Assembly (NCBI GenBank): GCA_947473045.1
Contig: CANJCO010000047.1
Location: forward strand, 1-39,581
Source: Myxococcales bacterium
Lineage (GTDB): Bacteria > Myxococcota_A > Polyangia > Polyangiales > Polyangiaceae
Direction of reading: 5' to 3'
Length of the DNA: 39,581 nucleotides
The first letter of the stretch is position 1; each line of letters opens with the position of its first letter. The translations under genes and the position numbers were made by a program. The notes below the pieces were generated by a model. It was not told the DNA's origin and did not search any database. It saw only the letters and a program-made list of their open reading frames with translations. This document shows positions 37,420-39,581 of this stretch, piece by piece.

Positions 37420-38298
37420 ATGGCGCGCATCGTATTGGCCAAGTGCCCGCAGTGTGGGGCCGGGCTGCCGGTCGCGGCGCACGACGACCTCGTGACCTGC
37501 CGCTTCTGCAACCACGTTTCGGTCATCGAGCGCGAGCCGCGGAGGATGGCGACTGCGCTGCAGCAGCACCCGGAGTGGGCGCAGTTCCAGCGCATCAAGG
37601 TCTCCGCGCGCCCGCCCGGTTGGGTCATCGCAGCGCTGGTCCTTTCGGTCGTCGTTCTGCCGCTGGTCGCGGTCATCGCGGTCGCTGTCCATGGAGCGAC
37701 GAATCCTGTGAAGATCGATGGGTTCAACGCGGCTGCCGGCGTCGTCCCCGGGGCGTCGACCATGGACCTGCGGGGCGAGGCGCTCGTGGGAGATCACCTC
37801 GACCGCGTCGAGCTCGGCGACTTGCTCAAGCAGACGCAAGCGATCGCGCTGGCGCGTCAACCCAACGCGAAGCTCACGTCGCTGGTGGGTACGGAGACCC
37901 GCGCTGGGCTGGTTGACGCCACGCGAGCGAACGCGGCGACAGTGATGTTCGAGTACAAGTTTGCCGACGCGTCCAAGCCTGCGGGCAAGGACGTCGTACA
38001 AGGCAGGCTGCTGCTGGTCGTCGGCAGTGGACGCGTGCTTACCATCGAACAACCCTCGTATTCCGCGACGAGCGAGGTGCTCGAAGCTCCGAAGTGTGCG
38101 TCGACCAGTGCGTGGGCTTCCGCGGTGCAAAGCGGCGTGCCCTCGGACGCAGTAGCGAAGTTCCTCTTGTACGACCAAGCTTGGAGCATTCGCGTGGAGG
38201 GACACGACGAGTACCGTCGCGAGATCGACGCGCAAACCTGCAAAGTCGTCAAGAGCTGGGGCCCCACGACCGACGAGGCGCCGCGACGCAAGAGGTGA
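37420..38298 (+). CDS. Membrane protein with N-terminal zinc ribbon
   Basis: 292 residues from the ATG at 37420. It opens with KCPQCGAGLPV and CRFCN (CxxC-N14-CxxC zinc ribbon, residues about 9-33), then one membrane helix (WVIAALVLSVVVLPLVAVIA, about 68-87) and a 200-residue extracytoplasmic part (e.g. VMFEYKFADAS, DVVQGRLLLVVGSGRVLTIE) of unknown fold. The N-terminal ribbon resembles those of Myxococcota proteins of unknown function. It is the second zinc-ribbon membrane protein in the area. Confidence 0.75.
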   Translation: MARIVLAKCPQCGAGLPVAAHDDLVTCRFCNHVSVIEREPRRMATALQQHPEWAQFQRIKVSARPPGWVIAALVLSVVVLPLVAVIAVAVHGATNPVKIDGFNAAAGVVPGASTMDLRGEALVGDHLDRVELGDLLKQTQAIALARQPNAKLTSLVGTETRAGLVDATRANAATVMFEYKFADASKPAGKDVVQGRLLLVVGSGRVLTIEQPSYSATSEVLEAPKCASTSAWASAVQSGVPSDAVAKFLLYDQAWSIRVEGHDEYRREIDAQTCKVVKSWGPTTDEAPRRKR

Positions 38299-38445
38299 CG
38301 ACGCGCCGAATCGCGGGCGAGCGCTACCGCCGCACCTTCCTGCAGGGCGATCCGGCCGACGCGCGAATCATGGGGTTCGCGCCGCGGGAGGGCGCTGCCG
38401 CGCGGGCCTCCGCCGCGCCTGTGGTGTGCGGGCAGGGGCGCGGGC

Positions 38446-38511
38446 GGTGTTCAGGCGTGTGAACACCGGTGTTCAGACGTGTGAACACCGGTGTTCAGAC
38501 GTCTGAACGCG
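38446..38511. repeat. Three tandem 22-bp palindromic units
   Basis: Three head-to-tail copies of a 22-bp unit built on GGTGTTCA-N6-TGAACACC at 38446-38467, 38468-38489 and 38490-38511. Units 1 and 2 differ at one base; unit 3 has a changed right arm and contains the 16-bp palindrome GTTCAGACGTCTGAAC. Each is a full dyad, so the array looks like a cluster of operators or stable stem-loops. It lies 10 bp after the stop of the minus-strand gene ending at 38522. Confidence 0.75.
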
Positions 38512-38521
38512 AGGGAAGCGG

Positions 38522-38785
38522 CTACGTCCCGTCCAGGTGAGCCCGGCCCACGGTCAGCGGACCTCGGGGCGTAAGGCGCCTGACGCGGCGGCAGCGCTGT
38601 TGGCGCAGGCGCGACCAGGCGGCCTCATCGGTCACCCGTGGCACCTCCGACGGCCCGGTAACCAGCAGCCGCGCCAGCGCGGGGCCGACCCCGGGCCACG
38701 CGGCGACGCGCGCGAAAACAAGGAGGTCGCGCCGTGACGCGCTCGATGGCGTGGGCGTGACCGATCGCTGGCGCTCGCAGCTCAC
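38522..38785 (-). CDS. Small basic protein, unknown, coupled to TrmH-type gene
   Basis: 87 residues, Arg-rich, with a central helical segment (LLVFARVAAWPGVGPALARL) and no family match. Its ATG overlaps the TrmH-type stop by 4 bp (ATGA), the main reason to treat it as real. It ends 10 bp before the palindromic array. Confidence 0.45.
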   Translation of the reverse strand: MSCERQRSVTPTPSSASRRDLLVFARVAAWPGVGPALARLLVTGPSEVPRVTDEAAWSRLRQQRCRRVRRLTPRGPLTVGRAHLDGT

Positions 38786-39240
38786 CCCTGCGCCGGGCCA
38801 GGTGATCGCTTGAGCATCCGGTCGTAGAGCACGACCGTGGCGGCCATCGCCACGTTGAGCGGGTAGGCGCCCGGAAGGATGACCGTGTCGTGCTGGCGCA
38901 TGATCGACGACGGCAGCGCGCCGTCCTCGGGCCCGAGCAAGTACACGGCCTGGTCGGGGTGCTGATAGGCGCGCACGTCGACTGCGGCGGCCGCGAGCTC
39001 GACGCAGACGAGGCGCGCGTTGACCGGAATGGAGGCGACGAGCAGCGCGAGGGTGTCGAAGTGAAAGAGGGGAATCGACAGCTCCGAGCCGACCGAGCTC
39101 GCCTCGCCGGGATTTCGTCGCCCCACGCTGAACACGAAGTCGGCACCAAACACCCGCGCTGTGCGCACGAGCACCCCAAAGTTGTAGGTGCGCTTGCCGC
39201 TGTAAATCCCGATGCCCACGTAGCCACGTTCACCGGTCAT
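38782..39240 (-). CDS. TrmH/SpoU-family RNA methyltransferase
   Basis: 152 residues from the ATG at 39240 (a GTG at 39261 is possible). A SPOUT-fold methyltransferase without an extra RNA-binding domain: NFGVLVRTARVFGADFVFSV carries the motif 1 Arg, AVYLLGPEDGALPSSIMRQH is motif 2 and PGAYPLNVAMAATVVLYDRM is motif 3, the SAM-binding knot. It probably methylates a tRNA or rRNA nucleotide (2'-O position for most relatives); the target is unknown. It is followed by a small coupled gene. Confidence 0.88.
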   Translation of the reverse strand: MTGERGYVGIGIYSGKRTYNFGVLVRTARVFGADFVFSVGRRNPGEASSVGSELSIPLFHFDTLALLVASIPVNARLVCVELAAAAVDVRAYQHPDQAVYLLGPEDGALPSSIMRQHDTVILPGAYPLNVAMAATVVLYDRMLKRSPGPAQG

Positions 39241-39528
39241 CACAGCGCCCGTCACTACCACCGATGCGCGCGCGGCGCGGCGCTCGCTCGAAATGGCACC
39301 GTGACTCCGCGAAAGTCGCGCACGGAGCCGCCGTGACGGCCCACCTCGGCCTCAGTCGACGACGTGCTCGCGGGCCGAATCGGCAACGCGTCGGCAACGC
39401 GTCGCCGCGGTCGCCGCGAATTGGCCCGAGGACGGCCCCGCGCTGGCCCGGCCACCCTCCCAACTCGCGATCTGCGTGAATTCAGCCACATCGCCCATGG
39501 CACGCGCCCTGCTCAGTCTCCGAGCGCC

Positions 39529-39581
39529 ATGCCGAGTCTCGAACACGATGCGCTCATCGAGCTGATCCGCAGCGATCCGTC
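39529..39581 (+). CDS. Start of an unidentified protein (cut by window end)
   Basis: An ATG at 39529 opens MPSLEHDALIELIRSDP and runs off the right edge. Similar short starts occur in hypothetical proteins of actinobacteria and myxobacteria, but 17 residues do not allow a family call. The 267 bp before it (39262-39528) show no other supported gene; a TCGGCAACGCG unit is repeated twice near 39380-39400. Confidence 0.4.
   Translation, partial: MPSLEHDALIELIRSDP

Follow-up and report, generated by a model that had tools for sequence, protein, structure and literature searches.

A lineage-specific family of tandem 22-bp palindromic units, often placed at gene ends, in a Polyangiaceae genome

The window, a stretch of 39,581 nucleotides, is contig C47 of a Polyangiaceae genome (G000; 5.15 Mb in 138 contigs, 99.98% complete). 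Placement in this family follows the organism names of the best hits of one of its proteins, which are Polyangiaceae/Myxococcales. Between two of its genes lies a short run of tandem palindromes (38446-38511). The run consists of three head-to-tail units in exact 22-bp register (Table 1). Units 1 and 2 match the dyad GGTGTTCA-N6-TGAACACC exactly. The third has two mismatches to this dyad and ends TGAACGCG, so the initial annotation, which described three perfect 22-bp palindromes, was right about the three units and their register and wrong about the third. Among the three cores, only that of unit 3 (its inner 16 bp, GTTCAGACGTCTGAAC) is fully symmetric. When the window was shuffled 100 times, the mean was 0.07 dyad matches (up to three mismatches) and no shuffle contained three or more. 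No Rfam family matches the window at the gathering score.

The nearest confirmed stop codons are 150 and 273 nt from the array, and a candidate 87-aa open reading frame ends 11 nt from it. This frame had been called a small TrmH-coupled gene; its start does overlap the TrmH stop, but its codon signal is about -0.01 per codon as compared to 0.38 for TrmH and it has no Pfam match, leaving the gene itself doubtful. The gene to the left has no Pfam match either (a longer 314-aa form was scanned). Between that gene and the array, positions 38302-38382 encode the 27-codon C-terminal tail of a paralogue of P0005, starting 3 nt after the stop of an unrelated gene; this tail, which intergenic DNA separates from the array, is probably the remnant of a gene that either travelled with the array or was left beside it.

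Table 1. Features in and around the palindrome array of the window
Feature	Position	Strand	Remark
Unit 1, GGTGTTCAGGCGTGTGAACACC, core 38449-38464	38446-38467	+	Exact dyad match; core is the family consensus
Unit 2, core 38471-38486, GTTCAGACGTGTGAAC (G7 to A)	38468-38489	+	Exact dyad match
Unit 3, core 38493-38508, GTTCAGACGTCTGAAC, outer arm decayed (GCG)	38490-38511	+	Two dyad mismatches; symmetric core
Spacer ACCGGT between cores 1 and 2; again at 38487-38492	38465-38470	+	Array-specific 6-nt AYNNRY type
Neighbour gene, 292 aa	37420-38298	+	Stop 150 nt before first core
SpoU/TrmH-type RNA methylase gene	38782-39261	-	PF00588, E 4e-12; convergent with the left gene of the array
Left flank, homologous to left flank of the C121 (L050) array	38302-38445	+	75% identical over 217 nt, array included
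87-aa open reading frame	38522-38785	-	GTG overlaps TrmH stop codon

The palindromic unit and its family

Across the genome, each strand carries 88 copies of the open dyad GTTCA-N6-TGAAC, as compared to one for a reversed control. The motif GTTCAGNCGTNTGAAC gives 79 strand-wise matches, with three palindromic sites counted twice, and thus 76 places, of which 72 belong to 16 arrays spread over 12 contigs and four are single sites (on C4, C14, C45, and C67). In-register extension allowing up to five mismatches adds five edge, variant, or cut-off units, for 77 in all. The arrays hold three to eight units each, all head-to-tail, and the 22-bp step is exact in all 16. Repeats commonly break assemblies at contig ends, and one array (C102) runs into such an end. 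In 400 kb of other DNA from the same genome, no near-matches (up to two mismatches) were found.

The unit reads RY-GTTCAGNCGTNTGAAC-RY plus two free bases, 22 bp in total. The 16-bp consensus core GTTCAGGCGTGTGAAC, with a symmetric CG at its centre, is common to all 16 arrays. Twelve of the 18 changes seen in the 77 units fall at core positions 7 and 11, and the other six are in first or last units. The purine-pyrimidine flanks are retained on the left in 77 of 77 units and on the right in 73 of 76. The 6-nt spacer, A-Y-N-N-R-Y, is near-constant inside an array and differs between arrays, with some types common to several loci (ATGCGT at three, ATACGT at two). Among array consensuses, five of six spacer columns vary as compared to none of the 16 core columns (Fisher p 2e-4). 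A near-fixed core with freely varying spacers is what would be predicted for a bound site, and the symmetric half-site RYGTTCANRC with the CG centre would fit a protein dimer. Gene conversion or recent spread could alternatively account for the identity of the core between arrays.

All four single sites are RYGTTCAGRCGTCTGAACRY, of the form GTTCAGRCGTCTGAAC and flanked by RY to the left and right; the 107 relatives together contain two single-core matches, one each in two genomes. Three of the four lie inside predicted coding sequence, where they contain seldom-used codons: AGA makes up 1% of Arg codons and TCT 3% of Ser codons. The C4 single, which uses the rare AGA codon, aligns without gaps to the orthologues of the same-genus genome G001 and of other relatives and is therefore not an insertion; it appears to have arisen by ordinary substitutions. 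With seven differences in 20 nt, a level that 191 of 880 windows also reach, this site is not unusually diverged, which supports neither overwriting nor selection there.

Position relative to genes and transcripts

Genes at the array loci were called with a simple codon-based finder trained on those loci, which places starts roughly. Nine of the 16 arrays begin at most 14 nt from a stop codon. Seven junctions are convergent, six codirectional, and one divergent (L048); two are unclear, L049 lying at a contig end and L050 facing a gene remnant. In 400 kb of other DNA of this genome, 58 of 316 junctions are convergent, and these make up 10% of the intergenic length. With L049 left out and L050 counted as non-convergent, seven of 15 arrays are at convergent junctions, an enrichment with p 0.011 when junctions are counted and 3e-4 when intergenic length is used. 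The neighbours include Mur ligase, OmpA, N-glycanase, AMP ligase, peptidase, FtsH, and TrmK, with no functional theme among the flanking genes.

The initial annotation had proposed a multi-operator control site. Dyad symmetry and multiple sites would suit clustered operators regulating the adjacent genes, but the arrays are at gene 3' ends with only one of 16 at a divergent junction, their neighbours have no common function, and three singles are inside genes. A promoter operator array was rejected on the same divergent count and on the lack of any promoter-like site in 37900-39581. We consider regulation of adjacent genes by clustered operators very improbable.

The arrays might instead act as RNA: transcription running on from the gene upstream would yield a long hairpin that shields mRNA 3' ends or terminates transcription, bidirectionally between convergent genes. 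The folding energies agree with this: the window array has z -9.1 on the plus and -7.5 on the minus strand, and two further arrays have -9.4/-5.8 and -7.3/-4.1 (three of 16 arrays were folded). With all three far beyond their shuffles, and with 16 arrays and four singles genome-wide, the earlier suggestion of an intergenic stem-loop family was borne out. The closeness of nine arrays to a stop codon also points towards an RNA element. However, five T in the eight bases beyond the array are found at 0 of 15 right-hand ends and at one of 16 left-hand ends (other strand); the hairpins lack the T run of an intrinsic terminator, a role that was rejected, and the window array has no such terminator site. 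The C12 array lies between two ordinary intrinsic terminators, both facing it, and because these enclose the array it is probably outside both transcripts. Of the remaining 15 array loci, only L046 has a facing terminator, on one side. In codirectional pairs the arrays are oriented four sense to two antisense, which makes no case for a bias relative to transcription. One array sits 5' of a gene, three singles are inside predicted genes, and a loop would need no conserved central CG. An RNA element seems unlikely to us. The C12 terminators, the absent T tracts, the 5' array, and the coding singles moderately favour a site that acts at the DNA level.

Distribution and copying of the arrays

The family is real and specific to its lineage. 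Paired units are present in none of 107 other genomes of the family, same-genus G001 included (1 of 108, the one being the genome itself). They are found in no record of the GTDB species collection, from which records of this genome are possibly excluded, and in no viral contig. A 221-base query from one array has no match in phages or plasmids, and with the viral contigs this led us to reject a viral, phage, or plasmid origin. In open-access papers we found no report of the palindrome family or of the core letters. The G001 genome (89% complete) has no core. The two convergent genes that bracket the C51 array are also present in G001, where their stops lie about 19 nt apart and no array intervenes; in the array-bearing genome, the stops are separated by about 15 nt plus a 104-nt array. 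Ten gene pairs were compared, and at loci beyond C51 the relatives also have no core behind the orthologous gene; these loci are less telling because gene order is not visibly conserved there. The initial annotation had held that a unit unique in the genome and absent from sister strains would speak against its reading; the unit is not unique, but the one genome of the same genus that was compared lacks it. Restriction to a single genome would be odd for a housekeeping role.

The left flanks of the window array and the C121 array are 75% identical over 217 nt including the array, with an 80-nt stretch at 81%. The right flank of C121 is 73% identical to that of the array at C1:133058 (a decayed Mur ligase-like tail). 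Because the C121 array has diverged flanks in common with two other arrays, array segments have evidently been copied between loci. The C121 array either keeps the ancestral arrangement or is a recombinant. At this locus (L050), flanks that resemble those of two different arrays hint at possible recombination between arrays. The window and C121 arrays have the same order of unit variants, G7 then A7, the A7 form of window unit 2 recurring in unit 2 of C121, so the array was probably in place before the copying event. Afterwards the flanks have diverged by 19-25% and cores 1 and 2 not at all (32 of 32 positions agree); the chance of this is about 1e-3 to 1e-4 if cores drifted as the flanks did. 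Gene conversion could alternatively have kept these cores unchanged. The window and C121 arrays, with their shared, diverged flanks, amount to an internal natural experiment.

Comparison with known repeats and a proposed role

What REP, STAR, and similar dispersed repeats do has long been debated. In behaviour the arrays come closest to the STAR elements of Staphylococcus, given in PMC3532100 as intergenic direct repeats with a short, conserved core, locus-distinct spacers and a copy number variable per locus; species differ in their loci, and function and spread are described there as unknown. The arrays likewise combine a constant core with a locus-specific spacer. However, according to the same source, the STAR core T(G/A/T)TGTTG(G/T)GGCCC(C/A) is GC-rich, 14 bp long, and not palindromic, and its spacers measure 40 bp or more, as compared to a 16-20-bp palindrome and a 6-nt spacer in the arrays, which also differ in their exact 22-bp period and preference for gene ends. 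Membership of STAR was rejected on consensus sequence and spacer length.

REP and BIME elements are short palindromes that lie near 3' ends, mostly where neighbouring genes converge or run in the same direction, and those of E. coli bind gyrase, Pol I, and IHF (PMC3733652 and PMC1525189). The arrays are also extragenic and between convergent or codirectional genes. In contrast to REP/BIME, the units of the 16 arrays lack the tag GTAG (or CGTC) at one end, and they are all head-to-tail where REP/BIME units alternate. The Y1_Tnp domain (PF01797) has no match in the genome, while controls match in 5 of 14, and RAYT-type mobilisation was rejected on this ground. Membership of REP/BIME therefore fails on tag, unit arrangement, and the RAYT-type Y1 transposase.

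A palindrome of REP or STAR type could nonetheless have spread, expanded by slippage, and been tolerated at gene 3' ends with no host function. Confinement to one species, array-specific spacers and variable copy number as in STAR (PMC3532100), 3' and convergent placement as for REPs (PMC3733652), the empty syntenic site in G001, and shared diverged flanks from copying between loci are all consistent with this. Against it, the core has hardly changed at loci whose flanks and spacers have, the 22-bp period is exact in every array, 400 kb of the genome contain no decayed copies, the genome has no Y1 transposase, and the C4 single is not an insertion. Such a functionless repeat is a possible explanation and ranks close behind the binding-site reading.

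The function that we infer is that the arrays are sites for a dimeric DNA-binding protein, acting at gene ends and not as promoter operators; we would give this roughly two chances in five. Each 20-bp site would be bound by a dimeric, sequence-specific protein. The 22-bp step, about two helical turns, would line the dimers up on one face, and the array would thereby form a compact protein-DNA block between transcription units. This block might serve as a boundary, chromosome-organising, or anchoring site. Copy number would shift by slippage or unequal recombination, and array segments would be copied between loci. A bolder version, to which we give little credence, is a bacterial analogue of satellite DNA: a lineage-specific DNA-binding protein with a role in chromosome organisation or partitioning would keep the core fixed, spacers would drift, copies would turn over, and point changes would create singles within genes. 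No DNA-binding family was found among 20 genes around the group of four arrays on C1. Within one genome the family separates a near-fixed core from free spacers, and most arrays sit where operator action is impossible. The 16 arrays and four singles make a small, exactly defined set for pull-down or binding tests.

Centromere sites of a ParABS system are a related possibility. The parS of M. xanthus, TGTTCCACGTGGAACG, is clustered in 22 copies (PMC3899335) and, like the arrays, consists of many clustered short palindromes with TGTTC half-sites. The array unit, however, has two extra bases between the outer half-sites relative to this 16-bp consensus. The arrays are also dispersed on 12 contigs rather than in one cluster, and they are confined to one species and absent from relatives although parS is widely conserved. 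No canonical parS was found in about 657 kb of this genome, a part of the whole. We regard a parS role as the least probable of the readings.

A CRISPR array was rejected, as the spacers have only 6 nt and are near-identical within an array instead of being unique and tens of bases long. The dRS3 repeats are inverted repeats of about 20 bp in clusters, with a variable centre. In the arrays the variable part is the spacer that separates the units, and the centre is conserved. LexA boxes of myxobacteria contain GTTCAG, but their spacing and position do not fit the array unit. Neisserial dRS3 is named in PMC3733652, and the CdbA motif, as given in PMC7156744, is a direct repeat that differs from the array palindrome.

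Other tandem palindromes in the relatives form GC-rich arrays of a chance-like kind, and the periods of most are multiples of 3; the scan was coarse, its arm criterion being reached by only some of the arrays of this genome (12 of 19 listed). At L208 (G001:C94), a different tandem repeat, CCTTTCACCTCTCG in about three copies, directly follows the stop of an OmpA-like gene, the gene that carries a palindrome array in the genome studied here. A 26-nt GC-rich tandem repeat outside the palindrome family lies near a contig end (L179 144-225, G000:C9). Four of the 16 palindrome arrays are within 48 kb of each other (G000:C1:106542-154276; simulated P 0.006).
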